Part shown: positions 1 to 13,345 of the stretch, piece by piece
How positions within the stretch are numbered: position 1 is the stretch's first letter
Layout: each line of letters begins with the position of its first letter
Origin: Bacteriovoracaceae bacterium
GTDB lineage: Bacteria > Bdellovibrionota > Bacteriovoracia > Bacteriovoracales > Bacteriovoracaceae
Length of the DNA: 64,000 nt
Assembly (NCBI GenBank): GCA_017858255.1
Contig: JAFMBV010000011.1
Location: forward strand, 1-64,000
Direction of reading: 5' to 3'
Notes under the pieces: generated by a model
Seen by the model: only the letters and a program-made list of their open reading frames with translations
Databases searched by the model: none
What the model was told of the DNA's origin: nothing
Program-made: the position numbers and the translations under genes

Positions 1-1863
1 CTCAGTTCCTTCTAGGACCTCTTGAACTGCCTGATCACTGATGGCCTCTGCAGTCACGTCTTCAGCACTTAATCCCTTTGCACCCTTTGCGGCCAAATCT
101 GCAATGACTGCAAGTCTTGTTGCCCGGACGACTGATGATGAATTTCCTAAGCTTAGTTGGCTTCCTTCTAATCTATCTCTTTCTCTTTGATCTGAGTCAT
201 CATCCCTTTCTCTTCGATCTCTATCTTCGTCTCTTCTTTGATTGGCCAATCTCTCTTGGTCTGGTCCACCATTTGGTGTATCGTTTCGATCCGCAGGTCT
301 GTCGACTTGAGCCTGTTGATTCCCCGTGTGAGCGTTTGCAGAATGAGTCTCTGGTCCCGTGTTATTTCTTCCATGAGGCAGACCACTTTCCTCAACGCTT
401 CTACGAGCTTTTCCGGCAGTTCTTCTTCGGTTAGTCGCTCTAACTATTCGAGAACCAACTCGAGCACCAAGGAGAGAGCGAGTAGCTATGCTTCCTCCTG
501 AACCGCCAATGTCTGTACCTCGGCCTGCCATTCGTAATGCTCTAAAATCCTGTCTAGCTGTTTGACGGACTAACTGACTGACGGCATTGTTTCCACCAAC
601 ACGAGAAGCTCCTATGAGTACACCTTGCATGGCCCTAGTCGACATATTGTCGATTATTTTAACCGGTGCCAATACGATGTCTTTAGCGCCTCCTGTTATG
701 CGGCCGACTCTTGAATTGGATAAATATTTTCCAAAACGCATGACATTTTCTTTGGCCCTAGAAAAAGTATTGGAAGTTCTCGCTATTAGACTAGCACTAC
801 TCGTTGTGGTTTGCGTGGCCTTGGTTCCTCTATTTGCAAGACGAGCAAGAGCGGGAACTTTCGCTGATAGCATATGAGCTCCTCTTAAACTTGCTCCCTT
901 TACGGCAGTGGCACCAACTCGAGCAGCAAGTCCTAAGCCTGTAAACGTTCCGGCCGTTGCGATGGTTAATAGGCCTTCTGAGATAAAGAATCCGGCACCG
1001 GCGCAAAAGGCATTAATGCCATCATTGCAATCAAGGCAAGCATAACCTTGTAAAGGTTCAACACACTTTCTTTCGCCACTCTCAGGATCGTCGGCCCATT
1101 CTTGACAAAATATCTGACTCTTTATCCAGGTATCAATACCACTTTTAAATGATTTCAATTTATTTACGATGTACTTACCAGGAGAATCCAAAAAGAGAGA
1201 GGCTTCACTTCTAGAAGTGGCCGCAGCAGTGTGAAGATCGTCACTTTTCGCGAATAAGTAATCTCTCATATTAGAAAAGGCGCCAACCGCAGCTCGCCCG
1301 ATATCCCTTAAGCTATTTAAAGTTGAAAGCAGACTTGAGATAAAGGCGCGGTAAACTTCACTGACACAGTCCGGTTGGTCCCCACCTAAACATTGGGAAC
1401 CTTCCTCAGCTGCTAAAACTGAGCCAAGGGAGCGTTCCACACGGCTAGTTATAAAGCTTGGAGCGACCTTACCAACGATACGAACAACTGAGCGACCCAT
1501 ATTGCACGCCATTTGTTTGCCACAGTGATCTTGAACATAATTTGCATCTTCTTCAGTACAGCTTAACTTTGTGGAAACTTCATCGAGGTCTTCTGCCAGA
1601 CCATTAATTCCTAAAAGAGGACCTTGGCTTTCCGGCGTGGCGCATGCATTAGCTTCTGCTGTATTGCCAGCAAGGTCTTGATTCTCATCAACGTAAACAG
1701 ATATTTCTTCATAACGCCGAAGACACGTTGGATCTTGTATGGATGCTTCACTAGAGCATTCTGTTTCAAAGGCTTCGACCTCTTGCTCACTAACGGCCCA
1801 AGTATTAAAGGCAATTAGTGAAGCGATAAAAATAATTAGAATTGGATTTTTTTTCTTAACCAT
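1..1863 (-). CDS. Large secreted protein of unknown function, cut by the left window edge
   Basis: Reading the minus strand from the ATG at 1863 gives 621 uninterrupted codons to base 1, so the gene continues outside the window. The N-terminus is a clear signal peptide (about 23 residues ending in NTWA). The next 330 residues are cysteine-rich and include a CGKQMAC motif and a CLDCNDGINAFC cluster. A small Gly/Ala-rich hydrophobic stretch and a long Arg/Ser/Gly-rich basic region follow. Near codons 520-570 there is a low-complexity charged tract of alternating Arg, Asp and Glu, then an Ala-rich helical region. I do not recognise a catalytic domain. The sequence starts divergently from the gene at 1969, with about 100 bp between them. 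Function unknown; export is well supported, the rest is description. Confidence 0.8.
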   Translation of the reverse strand, partial: MVKKKNPILIIFIASLIAFNTWAVSEQEVEAFETECSSEASIQDPTCLRRYEEISVYVDENQDLAGNTAEANACATPESQGPLLGINGLAEDLDEVSTKLSCTEEDANYVQDHCGKQMACNMGRSVVRIVGKVAPSFITSRVERSLGSVLAAEEGSQCLGGDQPDCVSEVYRAFISSLLSTLNSLRDIGRAAVGAFSNMRDYLFAKSDDLHTAAATSRSEASLFLDSPGKYIVNKLKSFKSGIDTWIKSQIFCQEWADDPESGERKCVEPLQGYACLDCNDGINAFCAGAGFFISEGLLTIATAGTFTGLGLAARVGATAVKGASLRGAHMLSAKVPALARLANRGTKATQTTTSSASLIARTSNTFSRAKENVMRFGKYLSNSRVGRITGGAKDIVLAPVKIIDNMSTRAMQGVLIGASRVGGNNAVSQLVRQTARQDFRALRMAGRGTDIGGSGGSIATRSLLGARVGSRIVRATNRRRTAGKARRSVEESGLPHGRNNTGPETHSANAHTGNQQAQVDRPADRNDTPNGGPDQERLANQRRDEDRDRRERDDDSDQRERDRLEGSQLSLGNSSSVVRATRLAVIADLAAKGAKGLSAEDVTAEAISDQAVQEVLEGTE

Positions 1864-1968
1864 TATTTCCAGTCTTGTACATTGGCCAACTTCAGCTAAC
1901 AATAGGTTAAGGGCTTATCGTCTTATTAGGTGAGTCTTTTAAGCAGTATTTTTATAAGGAAAATAATT

Positions 1969-2511
1969 TTGCTAAATAAATTAAAGTTTTTAAATATAAT
2001 TTTTTTGCTTTTGTTTAGTGCCAATTCCGCGGTAGCAAAATCAGAATTATTTATCGTGGAGAAACTTAATATTTCTTTAGAGATACCACAAGGCTGGCAG
2101 GGCTTACGAGGACATCTTGGAAGAGATATAACTCTGCTCGGGCTTGAACTAGGCAGTCGACGGGATACTATTTTTATTGAGGTCACGGATCGTAAAAGAT
2201 TAGACCTTAAAGCAGAAAAAAAAGCCTCCAAAAATTTTAAGAAGATTAAAATTGAGTGGCTAAAAAATAAGGCGGCGATTCTTAAAAACATCTCATTGGA
2301 TAAACCAATATCATTTTTAAATAAAAAACACCTTTACCATGAGGTTAGCTACTTACTTGGTGGTAACAGTTTTGTTGAGGGGAATCTGTTCTTAGAATGT
2401 GGACCTGATGCAGGACTTAATGTCAGTTTTTTAACGTTAGAAGAAAAAGAGAAAGCATTCCAAAAGAACTTTAAAGAAGTATTAACTTCTTTAAAGTGTC
2501 TTAAGAAATAA
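1969..2511 (+). CDS. Small secreted protein, PsbP/DUF1795-like
   Basis: The open frame begins at a GTG at 1930. The TTG at 1969 is preferred because AAGGA at 1956-1960 lies at proper distance and the protein then starts directly with a signal peptide (MLNKLKF, hydrophobic core, cleavage near SAVA). The mature part of about 157 residues carries an EIPQGWQG segment, like the strand-rich N-terminus of PsbP/DUF1795-type proteins, and ends with a Lys-rich helix. Likely periplasmic. The family match is by eye and weak; function unknown. Confidence 0.65.
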   Translation: MLNKLKFLNIIFLLLFSANSAVAKSELFIVEKLNISLEIPQGWQGLRGHLGRDITLLGLELGSRRDTIFIEVTDRKRLDLKAEKKASKNFKKIKIEWLKNKAAILKNISLDKPISFLNKKHLYHEVSYLLGGNSFVEGNLFLECGPDAGLNVSFLTLEEKEKAFQKNFKEVLTSLKCLKK

Positions 2512-2515
2512 GGAT

Positions 2516-2893
2516 TTAGATTACGCAGTTTTCAAGATTTGTTGAAATAAAGAAGTCCCACTTAACATGCCATGATTTCCCAAACTCCTGAGCACCGTAA
2601 TGACCAAGTTCAACTTCTGTGTTGGCAGGAATTATAAAGTTAGGTTCTAAAAATTCATTACGTCCATTTTTAATAAGATCTAGTGTTGGAATTAAGCAAA
2701 TTTCAAATGAGTAATTATTCGTAACTGTTACATGATAATCACTTGTTCTCTCACCGAGCATTCCTGCTGAACGATTGAACTCCACTTCACCTAATTGAAA
2801 GTAATTCTCATAGGCACCATAGTTTAATTCATTGCTTGCTTGAGTAGAGGTGATAGTTAAAAGGGTGATCATCGCTATGATGTATTTTTGCAT
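2516..2893 (-). CDS. Small secreted hypothetical protein (125 aa)
   Basis: Starts at an ATG preceded by a strong GGAGGA ribosome-binding site on the minus strand. A signal peptide covers residues 1-19 (ending TSTQA). The mature protein has about 105 residues, is rich in Asn, Tyr and Glu, and has two cysteines (in EICLIP and near the C-terminus), which could form one disulfide. It is convergent with the preceding plus-strand gene, with only 4 bases between the stops. I do not recognise a family. Confidence 0.7.
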   Translation of the reverse strand: MQKYIIAMITLLTITSTQASNELNYGAYENYFQLGEVEFNRSAGMLGERTSDYHVTVTNNYSFEICLIPTLDLIKNGRNEFLEPNFIIPANTEVELGHYGAQEFGKSWHVKWDFFISTNLENCVI

Positions 2894-2970
2894 TGAGTCC
2901 TCCGTGAACGAATTTGCTAAGCAATTCTACGACGGATGGAATAGGGTTCGCAAGCTACACGGAGAGGCTC

Positions 2971-4212
2971 TTATAGGAGCTTATAGGCCTTTTTAAAGTG
3001 AAGATATTCTCTAACGAGGGTCGTTGGCTGAGTGTTTTCCACTGTGTCAATACGGCAGGAGCCCGCAAGGGGTTCGGAAGTAGAGCTGCCACCATCACAA
3101 ACTACGCGGGCATTACAGCTTTTAAAATCACATTGAAGAGCGTTGCCCGGGTGCATTTGAAAAACATGGTCTCCTGTGTTCACAGCGCTTTGAATGCCTT
3201 CTATGCATTTTTGAAAATAATTAGGGTCTATAGCAGTTGAGCATAAGTGATCAAAAACTTTGGCCTCGTATTCTTCCCAGCTGGGAATTAACTTGGCCTC
3301 ATTGGTGCTTGGTTCTGCTAACAGGCTATTGGCCATTCCTTTAAGGCAGCTGTCATTAGAATCACTATAGTCACAAAAGAACTTAGAAAAGCTTAGGCCA
3401 CCTGCCTTAAAATTTCCCCAGTAAGAAGCGTAGTCATTCCGTTGAGACTTTAGACGCCAGCAAACACCTTCGGAGCATGAGCGTCTCTCTTTAAAATTGA
3501 TATTATTTCTGACTACCCATTCAGAACGGGTGCGATCTACTTTCTTATACCAATGATTGTCTGCTTGAAGCCTTTCAAAAAGAGCACCGGTTAAAGTACC
3601 GCTAACAGGAATATTCCAAAGCTTTGATAGAGCAGGGGCAACCATAAAGCCGGTGTTACAGCCGTTAAGAGTTGCAAAAGCTCCTTTCATAAACTGATCT
3701 CTAAGTTTTTCAAACCCTTTTGAAGTATACATGGAGGCTTTTGTTTGACCGAGTCTTAGGGACCAAGGGCTTGCATGGCCATAGAAATCAAAACTGGCGA
3801 TTTGCTTAAACTTTTTCATGACTCGATAAAGTTGTGCCGCCGTTAACTGACCTTTCTCTGTAGCGACAACCTTAACCCCATAGCGCTGAAAAACTTCTTC
3901 TTGGGTTGCCTTAATAACATCTGGTTGAGAGATGAAGACTACTTGGTGTTTTGGGTGTAGTGCCTGAAAAATTTTTCCTCTAAGGAGGGCCGATTGGAAG
4001 AATTGATCGGAGTCAACGCTCATGGCGGAGCCAATCACTAATATATGGGTAGGTGTTTGAGGATTAAGTTTTTGGTTAAGGGTTCCCACAAGAAAACGTG
4101 ATTTGTGAGAATTGTTCTTTTCTCCATTGAATCCACTACGATCCAAAAGATTTGGTACTCTCGCCTGAGGATTAAAGAGAATTACAAAGAATAAAAGAAA
4201 TCCCTTTTTCAA
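2971..4212 (-). CDS. Secreted caspase/gingipain-fold-like protein (putative clan CD cysteine peptidase)
   Basis: 413 residues from a TTG start with GGGGA just upstream; a signal peptide covers roughly residues 1-17. After a strand-like HILVIGSA segment (56-63) come two motifs with the order and setting of clan CD peptidases (caspases, gingipains, CHAT): FDFYGHASPW with His146, and ATLNGCNTGF with Cys185. A hydrophobic strand precedes each. The spacing of 39 residues suits that fold. The C-terminal 200 residues are cysteine-rich (several Cys pairs between 240 and 400) and may be disulfide-bonded. The activity is inferred from the dyad only; substrate unknown. It is transcribed divergently from the LamG lipoprotein gene. 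Confidence 0.6.
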   Translation of the reverse strand: MKKGFLLFFVILFNPQARVPNLLDRSGFNGEKNNSHKSRFLVGTLNQKLNPQTPTHILVIGSAMSVDSDQFFQSALLRGKIFQALHPKHQVVFISQPDVIKATQEEVFQRYGVKVVATEKGQLTAAQLYRVMKKFKQIASFDFYGHASPWSLRLGQTKASMYTSKGFEKLRDQFMKGAFATLNGCNTGFMVAPALSKLWNIPVSGTLTGALFERLQADNHWYKKVDRTRSEWVVRNNINFKERRSCSEGVCWRLKSQRNDYASYWGNFKAGGLSFSKFFCDYSDSNDSCLKGMANSLLAEPSTNEAKLIPSWEEYEAKVFDHLCSTAIDPNYFQKCIEGIQSAVNTGDHVFQMHPGNALQCDFKSCNARVVCDGGSSTSEPLAGSCRIDTVENTQPTTLVREYLHFKKAYKLL

Positions 4213-4450
4213 GCACCAGTCCCCATTTTAGTTTTATAAAGGCTTATATCGTTTTGCCGTAAACCGGTCTATAGGGTCTGTAGAAAAGGAGGGATAGATT
4301 TGACCACTATTGGTAGTGTCAAAAGTCTTTTCAGTGTCAAAATGAGTGAAAGTTTCTGACGTGATTTCAGTGGGTTATCGGTGCCGCATGGTATGCATAG
4401 TGGAGTCAAACTTGCATAATTTAAAGATAACAATGTGCTGGAGAAGCCCC

Positions 4451-6091
4451 ATGAATAACTTAGTAAAAATAAGCGCCATGATAATCCCTTTCATTCTTTC
4501 AGGTTGTGGAAGTGATAGTGATTTATCTGGAGATTTATCTCTGGTAGGGCTTCAGCCAGTTGTAACCTATAGTAGTTTACTTAAAGTCGATTCATCCAAC
4601 GTTACTTCCTTTGAGTTTAAGGGTGAATGTAAAAATATTGAAAAAGTTATGGTTAAAGGGAGTGTGACCTTTGATATCGCCTGTGAAAATGGAACGTGGT
4701 CAAAAGTAATAGACTTAACTTTTCTCCCAAACGGTCTCCACAGTATATCGATTGAAGCCGAAGATAAAAAGGTTGATATTGAGCTTTTTAAAGACAGCCT
4801 TCTTGCGGACTCAAGTGCCGTCTATCTTTTTTCAGACGCAAGTGATTTAGGTAAGGAGAGCCTTGGGCTTCATCCGGCGGTAAGTTTGGTGGATGTCGTA
4901 GACACAATAGATAGTGAAAGAGGCATTGTCGCAGAATTTAATGGTGCCTCTTCTCAGATTCAATTATCGGATGGAAACTTTTTTAACAATCAATTTAGTG
5001 ACAAAACCTTCTCTTTCTTTATGAAGTCTTCTGATTTTCAAACTAGTCAAGTGGTCTTTGAAGAGGGTGGTAGTGGCAATGGAATTGCTTTGAGAATTGA
5101 AAATGATGAATTGATCTTAGCTAGCCGTGCTGGTGGTTCTGGAACTCAAGTTGAAGTGACAGGCAGTTTAGTTAATCTTGAAAATAATTGGGTTTTTATT
5201 GTCGCTGGATTTTATAAGGGAAACCTAGAGCTCTCAATTAATGGTGTGAAGACGCAAACATCAGCTGGCTACACCTTAATCCCAAATCATGGAGATGTCG
5301 GGGGAATAGGTAGCATCTTTGGCTCAAGTGTTTTTGAACCCGTTGGCCCAGCCCCGTTATTAGGTCTCTTAAGTTCGCTTTTTATCCTCGATCGTCCCCT
5401 ATCTGCTGATGAAGAAGTAATCCTATCAGGAAGTGTTCTTACACCAAGAAATTATGATCCTTTAAAACTTGGACTAGTGGCCTCGCTTGAGTTTGAAAAC
5501 ATTGCTCTACCTGGTGAGGATAGCAATGGAAGTGTTAGTGGAGTTTCTCAAAATATTGTTGTTGCAAATGATGGAGAGAGAGGAAATGTCGCTAGCTTTG
5601 ATGGCACAAGTGAGATCAAATTAAGCAATGGAACTTATTGGAATGATGAATTTAGCACGAAGTCTTATGCACTTTACTTTAAAGTAGCTGACCTTATGAC
5701 AGAGCAAGTGATTTTTGAAGAGGGTGGCTCTACCAATGGTATTTCTTTAAGAGTTGAAAATGGTTATCTCTTTGCGGATGCACGGGCCGGTTCAGCAGCA
5801 CCAGCTCAAGTGCTTATTACTGATATTATAGATCTTGCTGATCAATGGGTGAAAGTAGTCGTACAGTTTGATAAGGGTAATTTTCTAATGAACGTTAATG
5901 ATGGGAACACCCAAGTTTCCCGTTCTGCCGGTTTTACGTCAATTCCCGATCACTCTAGTGAGGGAGGACTTGGAAGACGTTTTGGTGGCGATGCTAGCGG
6001 GAACTCTGGAGATGCCTTCTTCACAGGTTCAATTGATAAGTTTTCTACTTATAATCGTATACTAAGTGATTTTGAGTTCAAGTCTTACTAG
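4451..6091 (+). CDS. Lipoprotein with two tandem LamG/concanavalin-like domains
   Basis: An upstream in-frame ATG at 4346 is open, but the ATG at 4451 begins a canonical lipoprotein signal (MNNLVKISAMIIPFILSGC, lipobox LSGC, Cys19), so it is taken as the start. After an N-terminal beta-rich region of about 110 residues, two copies of a roughly 180-residue module follow. Both share the blocks ERG-VA-FDG, FSTKSY/FSDKTF, VIFEEGGS-NGI-LR-EN, and IPDH/IPNHGD-GG-G. This is the usual LamG-like jelly-roll layout, often carbohydrate- or protein-binding. It is probably displayed on the outer membrane. The two modules are diverged duplicates. Confidence 0.75.
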   Translation: MNNLVKISAMIIPFILSGCGSDSDLSGDLSLVGLQPVVTYSSLLKVDSSNVTSFEFKGECKNIEKVMVKGSVTFDIACENGTWSKVIDLTFLPNGLHSISIEAEDKKVDIELFKDSLLADSSAVYLFSDASDLGKESLGLHPAVSLVDVVDTIDSERGIVAEFNGASSQIQLSDGNFFNNQFSDKTFSFFMKSSDFQTSQVVFEEGGSGNGIALRIENDELILASRAGGSGTQVEVTGSLVNLENNWVFIVAGFYKGNLELSINGVKTQTSAGYTLIPNHGDVGGIGSIFGSSVFEPVGPAPLLGLLSSLFILDRPLSADEEVILSGSVLTPRNYDPLKLGLVASLEFENIALPGEDSNGSVSGVSQNIVVANDGERGNVASFDGTSEIKLSNGTYWNDEFSTKSYALYFKVADLMTEQVIFEEGGSTNGISLRVENGYLFADARAGSAAPAQVLITDIIDLADQWVKVVVQFDKGNFLMNVNDGNTQVSRSAGFTSIPDHSSEGGLGRRFGGDASGNSGDAFFTGSIDKFSTYNRILSDFEFKSY

Positions 6092-6097
6092 TCGTGA

Positions 6098-6967
6098 TTA
6101 TTTAGTACTGCAAGGGCCGAGTACTTCGCAAGTTCCGCGGTAGTCCTTATTGTGGGCCTGGCTCCAATCTGGGATGTTGTTATAATCGCTAATCATATAA
6201 GCTCTAAGAGAAGCTGTATCTGGGAAGTCTTGTTGAGTACAGGTAGCACTACTCCCCCTTATAACCCTGACATTACAAAATCTAAGCCCTTGATCTTTGG
6301 GAGGGATGGGATTGACTGGCTCAACAGTGATTGTTGGCTCTACTGTGACTTTTTTTAAGTCCCATGGTCTAAGCATCGTTTTTTGATTTTCTTTAAACAT
6401 CATTCTTACAAAGCAGCTACGGGCTTCACTTATAGTTGTTTGAAAAGTACGAAGGCCATTGAAGGGAAGTTCATCTGTAGTATAAACCGGGGCCGATGCG
6501 TAATTGTAAGGTCCTTCTTCTGTCGTTTGATCACAGAAAACACCATTCTTTTGAGAAACAAGAGCACTATTAAGATAGCCGCTTCCACTATTAAATAAAT
6601 CCGATGTGAGCATTATTTCTGCCTCCATTTTAAGAGGTATAGAAAGAAGGCTTTCATCAAGTACTTCCCAACAGAGATCAACAAAGTACTCAGATCCAAA
6701 TCGCTCGGAACCTAAAGAAAAAGTAACTCCCTTTTCTTTGTTTAGGATATGAGCTCCTTGGTCACTAGAGGCCTGGATATAACTTACTCGCCCTGAGGCT
6801 TTAGTAATTGAACTATAAGAGCTTCTTATCTCTCCTTGGGAGTAGTTAGCGATATCATAGGAGAAATAGTCAAAGTCATTCAGAATCTGTGGCAGGGCAT
6901 CTCCAGAGCACAAACAGTTTGAAAGGCCTTGGCAACTTGGAACCTCAGCTCCATCATTAACTTTCAA
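6098..6967 (-). CDS. 5'-truncated gene for an exported-type Cys-rich protein, paralogue of the fragment at 6960-7394
   Basis: The frame is open for 289 codons from a TTG at 6967 but has no signal peptide and no convincing ribosome-binding site; the frame upstream closes at a TAA at 7013-7015. Protein content looks real: conserved Cys (PSCQGLSNCLC, DLCWEV, VFCD, SCFVRM, TCEVLGPC) and an LGSERFGSEYF block near residue 95. From that block to KKVTV it aligns with the translation of 6960-7394 on the opposite strand. The first residues after the TTG appear to come from antisense of that neighbour, so the true N-terminus is missing. Function unknown. Compare the finding on the junction at 6960. Confidence 0.55.
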   Translation of the reverse strand: MKVNDGAEVPSCQGLSNCLCSGDALPQILNDFDYFSYDIANYSQGEIRSSYSSITKASGRVSYIQASSDQGAHILNKEKGVTFSLGSERFGSEYFVDLCWEVLDESLLSIPLKMEAEIMLTSDLFNSGSGYLNSALVSQKNGVFCDQTTEEGPYNYASAPVYTTDELPFNGLRTFQTTISEARSCFVRMMFKENQKTMLRPWDLKKVTVEPTITVEPVNPIPPKDQGLRFCNVRVIRGSSATCTQQDFPDTASLRAYMISDYNNIPDWSQAHNKDYRGTCEVLGPCSTK

Positions 6968-7394
6968 CCTTGGTTCTGAAAGATATGGTGCAGAGTACTT
7001 TCTAGATGTTTGTTATAAGGCAACTCAGATTAACTACCCTAATGGTTTAGGTCTGAACTACTCTCATGACAAGCAAATTACTATGACTGACCTTGATCCT
7101 CAAAGTGGTTATAACTACGAGAGACTTTCGGCCCTTGCTTATAGAACTGTGGTAATTTGTAAAGAAAAAGATAGTACTAGACCATTAGTAACGGAAACTC
7201 GTTGGGATCGTTTCAATGGCCGTAACGTAATTGACTTCAGGAACATTAATTTCTCTATGGACCTTGAAAAATGTAAAGTTCGTTACATGTTCAAAGAAAC
7301 TAACCTTGAAGGCGTTGCTTCTCTTCGTCGTTGGAATCTACAAAAAGCTCGTGTGTGTACTTACACATCATTCAATGAGCCAGCTTTAGATTAA
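6960..7394 (+). pseudogene. 3' fragment of a paralogous exported-protein gene, lacking its 5' half
   Basis: The plus-strand frame read from 6960 gives TFNLGSERYGAEYFLDVC and continues without a stop to 7394, ending in TYTSFNEPALD. This matches the middle and end of the minus-strand neighbour: LGSER[YF]G[AS]EYF, a CKVRYMFKE / CFVRMMFKE block and LRRWNLQKARV / LRPWDLKKVTV. The first ATG is at 7083, in the middle of the homologous region, so there is no proper start or signal peptide. It is best read as the 3' remnant of a second copy. Upstream of 6960 the frame stays open but is antisense to the neighbour. Confidence 0.65.
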
Positions 7395-7413
7395 TTTAAA
7401 ATTTTATATTATT

Positions 7414-7433
7414 CGGGGTCCCTAGGGACTCCG
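7414..7433 (+). terminator. GC-rich hairpin, terminator or attenuator
   Basis: Arms CGGGGTCCC and GGGACTCCG separated by TA form a 9-bp stem with one G-T pair, followed by TTTATT. It sits between the truncated gene ending at 7394 and the lipoprotein gene starting at 7448. Confidence 0.55.
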
Positions 7434-7447
7434 TTTATTGGTGAAAA

Positions 7448-9052
7448 ATGAAAAGACTCTCACTATTTTTATTTATACTTTCTATTTCTAATTGGGCCTG
7501 TCAGCCCTTAGCTCCGCGTGAAATAAATATTCATGTAGATCTCCAAAAGAAAATAAGAAAGTTTTATACATCCAAAAAACTCCTTGAAGAGAGACCTTCT
7601 CTATCTTTGGAGAGTTGTCGAGATACTGCTCTGACAAAGAAATTTATTATGTTAGGACTTGGTATTGAAAACCTGACCTTAACTAATAGCACTATTGGTT
7701 TTAACTTTACGCCACAAGAAGAAAATTTAAATTGTGAACTAAGGAATAACCCATATCAAAATAAAGAAACAAGAGAAGATCGTTTTTCGAAAAATAAGGC
7801 GAAACGAGCTTTTTTCGATCGCTGTGTGGTTGTTCAAGTAACGGAGCTTAATGAAAATATAGCTCTTAAATATCCTGAAGAACAAACAGGGTGCTCTATT
7901 AAGAAAATCAGTAAATGGAGTGTTGATTTTAGCGGTTCCTACTGTTTCTTTCAGCCTCAGACCGAATCTCTCTATTCAGTTCATCTGGATGTAAAGAAAG
8001 AGTGTCTATCAGAAGGTTCATTAGCAGAAAAAGAAACAATTCTTAGTGACTACAACGCTCTCCTTAATACCTACATAGCAGGTGATGCAACAGGCTTTAC
8101 ACAAGACTTAACTGCTTTAACGACTACACCTGTTAGGTTAAGTGTTGGTGCACTTCCATCATTGACTCCTGTTAGTGAGGACTTCGGTGTTGAAAGACCC
8201 CGATGGCCTACAACTTGGCAGGCAGCTGATTTATATTTAGGGAAGTTGAACATTACTTCTCAAGGAAATAATTACGACGAGGTCCGCTTACCTTTAGTTG
8301 TAAATACAATATGCGAGAGAAAGTGTAAGGGGAACCTTTGTACTTCTCCTTGTGATTACTCTCAACCAGTCGTTGGGGAGTTTTCTCTTTATGAAGTTAA
8401 TGGAAGTAAAAGAGAGTTTCTAAAGCTATGGCATGATGGTTCAGTGGCCTCTGCTAATTATCAAGGAGTGCTTCACGGAATGGGAGTGACATTACCAAAA
8501 GGTGTTCTTGAGAATGGTAAGAAGTATGAAGTTGAAGCTATCTTTAGAGAGCCTGATCTTGATTTTGCTTATTTTTCTGGGAGAGTGAGTAGAGAACTTC
8601 GATTCAGTAGAAACTACATTGGACCTCTTTCGAGATCCGGACAAATCAACCTTGTTCCGCAGATCAATGTCATTGGAAAGCCTGGTGAAGTTCCTATGAT
8701 TCCAGTGATTAGAAATTTGTCTTTTGAAAATAGTGAACTTGATGGCCTTTCTCGTGCTTTATCAACTTGGCAGTCAAAGCTTGATAACGCCTTTTGGCCG
8801 CCATCATATAGGCTTATGTGCGATCAAAGAGGTATTTGCGAGCCATCAGGAAAAGGCATTGTAAAAGTTAAAACACGCTTTCAATTAAAAGAAGATACAA
8901 ACTCCGGTTGGGAAGTTGTTGAACTTGGTGGAAACCGTGAAAGTAATATTGTTTCTAGCGCCCGTTGGAGCGCTGACGAGATACCAGAATTAGATTGTGG
9001 CATTGATTTAAATGATGATGAAGATGACTTTGATTGGGGTGATATCCTCTAA
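7448..9052 (+). CDS. Exported protein (possible lipoprotein), first gene of a secreted-protein operon
   Basis: 534 residues with a signal peptide (MKRLSLFLFILSISNWAC). The residues before the Cys (NWA) are not an ideal lipobox, so either lipidation at Cys18 or ordinary cleavage is possible. The mature protein is Cys-rich, with a CERKCKGNLCTSPC cluster near residue 290, and ends in a strongly acidic tail (DLNDDEDDFDWGDIL). No known domain is recognised. The next gene begins about 20 bases downstream and also carries an acidic stretch near its N-terminus; the cluster 7448-12879 is probably one transcript. Confidence 0.75.
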   Translation: MKRLSLFLFILSISNWACQPLAPREINIHVDLQKKIRKFYTSKKLLEERPSLSLESCRDTALTKKFIMLGLGIENLTLTNSTIGFNFTPQEENLNCELRNNPYQNKETREDRFSKNKAKRAFFDRCVVVQVTELNENIALKYPEEQTGCSIKKISKWSVDFSGSYCFFQPQTESLYSVHLDVKKECLSEGSLAEKETILSDYNALLNTYIAGDATGFTQDLTALTTTPVRLSVGALPSLTPVSEDFGVERPRWPTTWQAADLYLGKLNITSQGNNYDEVRLPLVVNTICERKCKGNLCTSPCDYSQPVVGEFSLYEVNGSKREFLKLWHDGSVASANYQGVLHGMGVTLPKGVLENGKKYEVEAIFREPDLDFAYFSGRVSRELRFSRNYIGPLSRSGQINLVPQINVIGKPGEVPMIPVIRNLSFENSELDGLSRALSTWQSKLDNAFWPPSYRLMCDQRGICEPSGKGIVKVKTRFQLKEDTNSGWEVVELGGNRESNIVSSARWSADEIPELDCGIDLNDDEDDFDWGDIL

Positions 9053-9072
9053 CGACTTTTAGGAGAATGAAA

Positions 9073-9594
9073 ATGAAGAATGTACTACTTATGCCTGCTC
9101 TATTGTTGAGCACTAACATTTTGGCCGGAGATATCGATGATATGTTCGGTGGTGGAGAAGATGAATTTGAGTTTGAAAGATTTAGCGATAACCAAATCCT
9201 TCTTGCTATTGATGCAGACGCAGAAGTTGCCTGTAAAGCCGGTGTTTGTACTTTGCACTCAGTAAGCAACACTTACGGTGGTTGGGAAGTTTCTTTCAAC
9301 GTTGGTGAAGGATCAAATGGCAACTCTGGTGGAACAAATATTTATACTGGTGGTAGCACTGGTTCAAGTAGTGAGCCACGTGATTACTGGGGAGTTCAAG
9401 TTAAATACGGAAGAGGACAATGTACACAAAGAATCAATGTTCCTCGTTCAGTATATTATGCCGTTAATCGTTACATGTACGGTCTAATGACAGAAGAGGG
9501 TGGAACACGTCGTGGATTCACTCCTGCTGATGAAGCAATGATCATGTTTTACACAACCATTATGAGTAAGGCCTCTGGCTGTACAATGCAATAA
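9073..9594 (+). CDS. Secreted Gly-rich protein of unknown function
   Basis: The ATG at 9067 is in frame, but AGGAG at 9061-9065 is correctly spaced only for the ATG at 9073. The product of 173 residues has a signal peptide ending in NILA, then an acidic DDMFGGGEDEFEFERF segment. A Cys pair in a VACKAGVCTLHS hairpin, a Gly/Ser-rich linker and a C-terminal helical part with two more Cys follow. No family is recognised. Tight spacing to both neighbours puts it in the same operon, and the proteins may work together at the cell surface (inference). Confidence 0.75.
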   Translation: MKNVLLMPALLLSTNILAGDIDDMFGGGEDEFEFERFSDNQILLAIDADAEVACKAGVCTLHSVSNTYGGWEVSFNVGEGSNGNSGGTNIYTGGSTGSSSEPRDYWGVQVKYGRGQCTQRINVPRSVYYAVNRYMYGLMTEEGGTRRGFTPADEAMIMFYTTIMSKASGCTMQ

Positions 9595-9607
9595 TTGGGA
9601 GTTTGAT

Positions 9608-12358
9608 TTGAAGTACTTGGCGCCTATTATATTTACAATACTTTGCTCCTCTGTTTGGGGGAGCTTTGAGGCGCCTCGTTTTGAGCTTCAAAAACTCGAC
9701 TACTCTAATAGGGCCAAGTGTGCTCTAGAGAGTCAAAAGCCAGCTAAGTCAGCATTTCTTATGATTTCCAATGTTGATGCTGCCAAAGCTGTTTATCGTC
9801 TCGCTAAATTCAGGGGAGACGATGTTGAAGAGACTACAAAAATGGGGATCGATCGTTTTCGGTTCTCTGTTTTATCCCTTATGAATCTCATTCATAATAG
9901 ACTCGTTAGTCGTCAATTACCTTTACTACCTAGTGATATTACAAATACTGATGGTCATATACCTTCTCGTTATAAAGAGGTTATGGGCCAATGTCGCCAA
10001 GGTGAATATTGCGCGGCCCTAGATGAATATTTAAAAGATATATGGACCATTTCCAGTAAAGACTGGAATCCAGGTTCTAAATACCTAGAGTTTTTTAAGG
10101 TAGATAATTATCACTCTGAAGATAACTACCTCTCCGATAAAGATTATGAAAAAGAGGCAGATAAAGAACTTACGTGTGCTTACTTAAAGAAGTTCAGCCC
10201 TCTACAGGCCAATCTATTTGGGACTAAACCAAATAAGGTCGCCCTTGAAATGATAGCTGATGCTGTCGCTCAAAAAGACAGTAAATATGGTCATTGTGAA
10301 GATTTTGATGCACAGGAAAATCTTCAGGTTGCAGCTTATGAAATTAATCTTCCTGATCTAAAAGAAAAGAAATTATTTAGAAAAGAATCCTGGGTAAATA
10401 AAGGTTTTGATTACTGGCACAGCCTGCGCCTTTATTTAAGCTTTGCGTTTAGATTTGCTCCAGAAATGGAACAGATGGCCTATCCTTTTGCCCCTCTTTT
10501 TAGAGGTATCACTCTAGAAGAAAGTGTCATGCTTGTACCTAATGGGTGCAGATCATTATCTCCTGCAAAATGTGATGGAGACCGTTTGGCCCTTAACTCT
10601 ATTAGAGAGTTCGCGAAGGAAGACTTTAAAAAAGAAGCCCTCGAATTAGATATTCTTTCTGAAGTACCAAATGGTCCAGATGATGATCTTGTTAATGATA
10701 TGATTCCTTCTGTTAATGTGGATGAACTTGATCTTGGTGCTCACCGCACGGCCAGTGATTGGCTTGAGAGTTTCTCTGGAAACCTTTCTCAATCTCGCGC
10801 CCTCATGAAAAAAAGGCTTATTAAGGCAATCAACCTCTTTAATTTCGTAACAACGTCTATCCCAGTTGAAAGTCTACTGAAGCGCCTTGATCAACAATTT
10901 AAGGGTAAACTTCTTAGTGGAAAAAATAGTACGCTCTCTGTTGCAGAGAAAAACGACCTTTATTATCTGTGTAGTGAATTTAGTTTTGCTCAACATGAAA
11001 AATGGTCCTTTATTCGTAAGAATCTAGAAATCCTTTCAAAGTCTAAAGTTGTAGAAGGACTAACTTCTTCTATTTCAAATGTTAGCACTGAAGAGTCGTT
11101 TAAATACTTTGTTACCCTAGGAGACGCTGTCAATAGTGCCTGCTACTCATTAAAACAACACGATATTTGGGACGAAGATTTTAGCCTAGATAAAGAAGGC
11201 TTTCTTCCTTGGTACACGACCAAAATTTATGAAGGTAAAGTTAAATCCAAATATAATGACAGGCTTAGTGAATACTTATCAAATAATAAACCACTTTTGG
11301 CCTTCCCTCAGTATCAGGCGACAAAGTCTATCGACGATGTCATCTGTGCCAATGCTAGTGATTGTGCAAGAAAGACTATTGAGGCCACCTTGTCGCTTTA
11401 TTCAGCAACACAATACGCTTCGACCTTTTGGTCACTAGAGCAAAAAGTTAAGTCTCCAGATCTTTTTAATCCCTATGCCGAAAGAACTTCGTGTAAAGTC
11501 TATGACCCATGGTTTAAGACGCGTTCGACTCTATTTAGCTTTTTATGGGATATGGGACAGACTGCCGCCAGTGCCTTCGTTCCTGGGATGATTTATACTT
11601 CTGCGGAACTTCAGCCAAAAATGGTTACTAGCTTTAATGAGTTGGTTAAAGACGGCAAGATTGAATACGACACTCGTTATCAGAAAGAAAAAATTCTTAC
11701 GGCGATTACAGCAGATTTTGGTCCTCTAACCGGTGTACCTTGCGCTGTTTCTCTTAATCGGAACCCTAACAATCCTTTTAGCGTTATGCGTTTTACAGGG
11801 ATAAGTGTTGGGGCCTGTAATAGTGATACTGATCATAACCTCAACGTATATTCTGCAAGTGACATTGATGCCAACAGAGAGTCAGGTCATAGCGAATGCT
11901 TAAGCTGTCGCTTAAACTTTGAAAGCATGTCAGGTGTTGTGGCCTATGCAACTCAAAATGTTGGACCAGTGTTTTTCTTGGTCCGTGGTCTCTACAATCT
12001 CTATAAGTCTTTAAAAGACCCTTATAATATTCCTCGTTCATGGGAAGTTCACCCCTATGATGCCTATGAAACTAAGGCACTCTACGGTGAAATCCCTAAG
12101 TCTTGTGTCAAGAACCTAAGAAAAGGGAAGAGCTGTTTAGATGCTTGTGCCGAGAAAGTAAGTAATCGCCTTAGCGAAGTAATGGGTGGCCACATAGAAA
12201 AGTTTGATCTCTCTAGTCGTGGAACAGGTAGCGTTAAGCACAGTCTTTGTGCGGAACCTATCAAAACTGTAACTTACGAGAATTCAAATGGTAACACTAC
12301 AAGCTGCAGGTTAAAGAAAATTGAAGTACCAAGTAGCTGTAAGGGGATGTTGAAATGA
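9608..12358 (+). CDS. Large secreted Cys-rich protein of unknown function (916 aa)
   Basis: Starts at a TTG with TGGGAG seven bases upstream; the signal peptide ends near SSVWG. The mature protein is mostly helical in appearance and has about two dozen cysteines, including an HSECLSCRLNF motif and a C-terminal cluster (SCVKNLRKGKSCLDACAEK). There is a hydrophobic segment near VGPVFFLVRGLYNLY in the last fifth. I recognise no enzymatic domain. Its stop overlaps the start of the next gene (ATGA), indicating translational coupling. Confidence 0.75.
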   Translation: MKYLAPIIFTILCSSVWGSFEAPRFELQKLDYSNRAKCALESQKPAKSAFLMISNVDAAKAVYRLAKFRGDDVEETTKMGIDRFRFSVLSLMNLIHNRLVSRQLPLLPSDITNTDGHIPSRYKEVMGQCRQGEYCAALDEYLKDIWTISSKDWNPGSKYLEFFKVDNYHSEDNYLSDKDYEKEADKELTCAYLKKFSPLQANLFGTKPNKVALEMIADAVAQKDSKYGHCEDFDAQENLQVAAYEINLPDLKEKKLFRKESWVNKGFDYWHSLRLYLSFAFRFAPEMEQMAYPFAPLFRGITLEESVMLVPNGCRSLSPAKCDGDRLALNSIREFAKEDFKKEALELDILSEVPNGPDDDLVNDMIPSVNVDELDLGAHRTASDWLESFSGNLSQSRALMKKRLIKAINLFNFVTTSIPVESLLKRLDQQFKGKLLSGKNSTLSVAEKNDLYYLCSEFSFAQHEKWSFIRKNLEILSKSKVVEGLTSSISNVSTEESFKYFVTLGDAVNSACYSLKQHDIWDEDFSLDKEGFLPWYTTKIYEGKVKSKYNDRLSEYLSNNKPLLAFPQYQATKSIDDVICANASDCARKTIEATLSLYSATQYASTFWSLEQKVKSPDLFNPYAERTSCKVYDPWFKTRSTLFSFLWDMGQTAASAFVPGMIYTSAELQPKMVTSFNELVKDGKIEYDTRYQKEKILTAITADFGPLTGVPCAVSLNRNPNNPFSVMRFTGISVGACNSDTDHNLNVYSASDIDANRESGHSECLSCRLNFESMSGVVAYATQNVGPVFFLVRGLYNLYKSLKDPYNIPRSWEVHPYDAYETKALYGEIPKSCVKNLRKGKSCLDACAEKVSNRLSEVMGGHIEKFDLSSRGTGSVKHSLCAEPIKTVTYENSNGNTTSCRLKKIEVPSSCKGMLK

Positions 12359-12879
12359 GACTATTAATACTTCTCTTTTTTGTAAGTATGCCTTCCTTTG
12401 CTCTTCAGCTAGAAACTGTATGGACAGAACGTGCTGAGAAAAACCTTTCACTCACTTGTGAGGGTGAAGAGACTTGTGTCCGTTACTGTCAGGAAAAAGA
12501 GAGTTGCACTGTTGTTGAAAAGGTTTGTAAGAACTGTGTGGGTACTTCTTTGGCAATGACATTTGCTTTTAACGAAATGGGGCGATCATTAGTTGCTTCT
12601 GAAAAATTAGATGATTATGCACTCTTCGATCTGTTAGAGAAAAACTCATTTGTTAGTTTAACTTCAAGATCAGTTTATAATCTTGTTGAGCGGTTTGATT
12701 CTTCAAGCCTTAAAACTAAATTTAGAAGTCTTTGTGAAGACGGTACTCGCTATCCGGTTGTGTTCTTTGGCAAAACGGCCTCTGGAGAAATGGGGCGAGT
12801 CCAAGCTGTTTGGTGTGAGTCAGGCTTCTATGAAATGCTTCAACTTGATCAGTTACCTACTGATGGAGAGTTATTCTAA
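12355..12879 (+). CDS. Small secreted Cys-rich protein, last gene of the operon
   Basis: 174 residues with a signal peptide (MRLLILLFFVSMPSFA). A dense cysteine block (CEGEETCVRYCQEKESCTVV then CKNC) directly follows and suggests a disulfide-rich head; two further Cys lie near the C-terminus. It overlaps the preceding gene by 4 bases and has a good AAGGGG site inside that gene's end. Exported; function unknown. Confidence 0.75.
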   Translation: MRLLILLFFVSMPSFALQLETVWTERAEKNLSLTCEGEETCVRYCQEKESCTVVEKVCKNCVGTSLAMTFAFNEMGRSLVASEKLDDYALFDLLEKNSFVSLTSRSVYNLVERFDSSSLKTKFRSLCEDGTRYPVVFFGKTASGEMGRVQAVWCESGFYEMLQLDQLPTDGELF

Positions 12880-12883
12880 AATA

Positions 12884-13345
12884 TTATTTACCTGAAAATT
12901 TGGATAAAAAGTCACCGAACTTATCAAGAAGTTTAAAGATAGCACCACGTTTTCTTTTATAAAACTCCAATAGATTGTAAATAAGGATCATATAAAGAAG
13001 TAGTGCTGTAAGCATTAAGAGACTCATTAGAGTTTGATCACTAGATTGCTCCTCAAATTCTTCCGGCCTAAAAGAGATTTCTCTCATACATTGTTCACGA
13101 CTTTTATTGTCTTTTTCTATTAAGTAACATTCATTCTTGTAATGTGAATAGATCGTCTCTTGGCAGGACCTGCGTAGCCAATCAAGTTTTACTTCCTGAC
13201 AGCCTTTGAAGTCATAAGTTCTTGTTGCCTTATGCATGGATATATTAGAGTCACGAGTGATTGATGACACGGTTAAAAATGTTGGTAAACTTGCAATGAC
13301 AAGAAGAGGAATCATTCTCCAAAGAGTTATTTTTATTTTATTCAC
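12884..13345 (-). CDS. Small inner-membrane protein with two transmembrane segments
   Basis: 153 residues from a GTG. One hydrophobic segment lies near residues 10-27, then a loop of about 80 residues with four cysteines (CQEVKL, SCQE, NECY, CMRE), then a second segment (LLMLTALLLYMILIYNLL) and a basic tail. The layout predicts an extracytoplasmic disulfide-containing loop between two helices. It is convergent with the secreted-protein operon, 4 bases apart. Function unknown. Confidence 0.65.
   Translation of the reverse strand: MNKIKITLWRMIPLLVIASLPTFLTVSSITRDSNISMHKATRTYDFKGCQEVKLDWLRRSCQETIYSHYKNECYLIEKDNKSREQCMREISFRPEEFEEQSSDQTLMSLLMLTALLLYMILIYNLLEFYKRKRGAIFKLLDKFGDFLSKFSGK

Follow-up and report, generated by a model that had tools for sequence, protein, structure and literature searches.

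In a Bacteriovoracaceae genome, one recent deletion of roughly 950 bp very probably removed the divergent promoter region between two genes, here called A and B, together with the 5' halves of both, a reading that is built on sequence comparison with related genomes. The window, the whole 64,000-bp stretch of DNA analysed, takes up positions 1-64000 of a contig 65,775 bp long, from an assembly of 4.08 Mb (207 contigs, 98% complete). Within it, the 3' parts of A and B lie head to head, in the order and orientation of an intact pair in a relative of the same genus that carries 950 bp more (Table 1). The odd junction is best explained as ordinary gene loss and not as a genetic switch, which removes a false lead towards phase variation.

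Table 1. Junction of genes A and B and the downstream genes, in window coordinates
Feature	Coordinates	Strand	Remarks
Gene B remnant	6098-6961	-	Last ~287 codons; N-terminal ~97-101 codons and signal peptide gone
Probable deletion junction	6948-6961	.	~3 bp microhomology, TTA at 6957-6959; between blocks collinear with G002
Gene A remnant	6954-7394	+	Last ~146 codons; N-terminal ~140 codons and signal peptide gone
Hairpin	7414-7433	+	Between A and C; possible terminator or attenuator
Gene C	7448-9052	+	Downstream of A; open
Gene D	9067-9594	+	Downstream of A; open
Gene E	9608-12358	+	Downstream of A; open
Gene F	12355-12879	+	Downstream of A; open

The two remnants and their intact relatives

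Both frames of the preliminary description, related, head to head and lacking their 5' ends, are confirmed, as is the absence of a signal peptide from either. The minus-strand open reading frame (6098-6967) has 289 codons when counted from the TTG at 6967, the sole candidate start in that frame, which lies at the junction, and the plus-strand frame contains no ATG, GTG or TTG upstream of 7083. Likeness to family B begins in the minus frame at about 6958-6961, running downwards (NDGAEVPSCQGLSNC...); likeness to family A begins in the plus frame at codon 6954 (SLTFNLGSERYG...), close to but slightly before the position 6960 from which the plus copy had been described as recognisable. The remnants match each other with E = 7e-13 (BLASTP) and their intact counterparts in the relative with E = 1e-19 across 257 amino acids (BLASTP), so that A and B are true paralogues with similarity well above chance. 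The three short blocks on which paralogy was originally proposed understate it, the region common to A and B covering about 250 amino acids from (Y/W)ACNAGLxHK onward; most of the N-terminal part of this region is gone from the gene A remnant.

The intact pair belongs to G002, a genome of the same genus (contig JAIPEG010000020.1, Bacteriovoracaceae bacterium Tobar13m-G32), in which A and B are adjacent and divergently transcribed with 225 bp between their starts. The relative of the plus copy, A, has 285 amino acids, starts with MKSLFSLLVGLFLLSANTHA and is preceded by a Shine-Dalgarno sequence; the relative of the minus copy, B, has 385 amino acids and starts with MRYIIALLAITIACTNSFAG. The N-termini of both resemble signal peptides as judged by eye. 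The gene A remnant corresponds to residues ~141-285 of the former with 74% amino acid identity, and the gene B remnant to residues ~98-385 of the latter with 73%. A second genome, G005, has the divergent pair as well, its B being truncated where a contig ends, and in a third, G004, B is not on the contig that carries the A operon. The intact syntenic pair of G002 and the divergent pair of G005 support the first of the explanations originally offered, in which the divergent promoter region was deleted along with the 5' ends of both genes. The gene B of G005 is split over two contigs with an overlap of exactly 141 bp (L039 1-141, L040 1-141), a k141 assembly graph break, and a search for a third contig carrying the break sequence found none.

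The junction, its age and the alternatives

In BLASTN comparisons with the G002 region in reverse complement, window positions 3083-6947 align collinearly with 1044-4906 and positions 6954-13185 with 5857-12094, both flanks keeping their orientation, which leaves 950 bp of G002 unmatched in the window. The missing stretch amounts to ~140 codons of A, the spacer and ~101 codons of B. Homology on the left reaches 6959 through CATTA and homology on the right begins at 6957 with TTAACTTTCAACC, so that the two overlap by ~3 bp and the join has a few common bases without a long repeat; the true ancestor may have had a few more shared bases at the join. The endpoints lie at non-homologous positions of A and B, which rules out recombination between the paralogues as the cause. 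When the missing N-terminal halves were sought in the source assembly itself, the queries matched the known remnants only and no second copy was found. These observations are best explained by one deletion, with only a few base pairs of microhomology at its ends, that would have taken out the spacer with the 5' halves and left the head-to-head 3' remnants of two paralogues for secreted proteins. Both remnants would then be pseudogenes, and the loss would have arisen in the sequenced lineage or strain and not in the assembly.

Differences between the remnants and G002 fall mainly at third codon positions (0.20/0.15/0.41 in A, 0.18/0.18/0.55 in B), and relative-rate counts with outgroups (12 vs 6 and 7 vs 5 for A; 9 vs 24 and 14 vs 15 for B) give no consistent excess of change in the window's copies over those of G002. 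Retained third-position bias without consistent acceleration suggests that the deletion is recent compared with the split from G002, or else that it is an assembly error, the absence of decay being equally expected under either. A real deletion is favoured because the microhomology is tiny and no separate contig carries the missing segment. An artefact, in which the intact segment of ~950 bp is present in the organism and was skipped, or in which the assembler followed reads that were chimeric or came from a minority haplotype with the deletion, is nonetheless an alternative to be weighed, if an unlikely one: the assembly is fragmented, the remnants are undecayed and the gene B of G005 is likewise broken in a k141 assembly, but ~3 bp in common is far too short for a k-mer graph to collapse on, and no separate contig carries the missing halves. 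As for the chimeric join suggested in the preliminary description, collinearity on both sides excludes one between distant loci and reduces the proposal to this local drop-out of 950 bp.

The exact 141-bp break inside B in G005 hints at an A/B segment that is recurrently unstable in this genus, being lost or rearranged in a fraction of every population, and that would thereby switch the secreted A-F locus on and off; we consider this very improbable. Very little credence can be given to a reversible inversion, in which a phase-variable surface-protein locus swaps the ends of A and B. The oppositely oriented paralogues do offer 43 nt in common at 74% complementarity, in the LGSER block, but this is the only notable inverted repeat, with nothing else flanking the segment besides the paralogue similarity and short chance-like matches. 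The flanks are moreover oriented as in the intact relatives, the 5' halves are missing altogether instead of having been moved, the non-homologous endpoints do not suit an exchange between A and B, and G005 offers no third, alternative contig at its break. Nor is there an invertase nearby: the single serine (PF00239) and twelve tyrosine (PF00589) recombinase domain hits in the genome all lie on other contigs. That the two short forms still function as truncated genes, or arose separately as short genes, is comparably far-fetched, since their retained third-position bias is set against full-length relatives in the same syntenic place, the missing signal peptides, the want of a usable start in A and a cut that, in a low-confidence model, would deprive the shared domain of several predicted strands.

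The conserved locus downstream

A stands first in a conserved locus of mostly secreted proteins with the order A-C-(B)-D-E-F (window 7448-12879 and L038, L042, L043, L044, L049, L050 and L064-L067). B is part of the operon in some genera, but in the window's genus it lies outside; in more distant members of the family (G008, UBA3083) the genes run A-C-B-D-E-F in one direction, and in G016 A precedes and B follows the position of C. Gene E was found in 10 of the 39 genomes searched, all ten being among the 25 from the window's own family, and a search with A matched the same ten genomes and one more (G031). Three genomes of the same genus (G001, G003, G006) yielded no gene E, and the whole locus is therefore dispensable within the genus, a point in favour of the deletion reading. 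Within the locus, gene C of G002 is in two frames (L038 6640-6700), through a frameshift or a sequencing error, and gene E of G016 is shorter, at 838 amino acids, and its matched stretch contains an in-frame TGA (L043 4236-6752).

Searches of the A-F proteins against Pfam, NCBIfam and PHROGs returned nothing above a curated cut-off or otherwise convincing; Pfam gave no match, and no NCBIfam hit exceeded its cut-off. Neither A nor B has a sequence relative in the PDB, and phage records contain no relative of B. AlphaFold models of A and B are strand-rich and of low confidence (pLDDT 53 and 49), and Foldseek gave no match with E <= 0.001 for the model of A. A literature search on deletions in Bacteriovoracaceae metagenome assemblies also returned nothing.

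Because A heads the locus, the deletion probably also removed the main promoter of the A-C-D-E-F operon, and C-F, deprived of the divergent spacer, would have to be transcribed by read-through or from a weak internal promoter. The sigma-70-like match at 7385-7412 is no better than expected by chance. Against a deletion with promoter loss stands the fact that C-F are still open and conserved despite the presumed absence of their promoter. A hairpin occupies the same place between A and C, with a different sequence, in all four same-genus genomes, and on account of this position A may normally be expressed above C-F. Found in roughly one in three of the sampled Bacteriovoracaceae and in the course of being lost from some members of the genus, this unnamed and uncharacterised secreted-protein locus is more notable than the junction and a more useful lead.

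Comparison with known systems

Invertible-promoter phase variation, as in Bacteroides capsule loci, resembles the present case in having a divergent paralogous pair of secreted-protein genes around a shared control region. Here, in contrast, there are no flanking inverted repeats, nearby invertase or alternative orientation, and the segment is missing instead of inverted. The junction appears to be an event of a known kind, a simple deletion with small microhomology, and shares with microhomology-associated (illegitimate) deletions that create linked pseudogenes the collinear loss of one segment, the few bases common at the join and the otherwise intact coding remnants on both sides. Its only oddity is that a divergent promoter would have been spanned and two paralogues decapitated at once.
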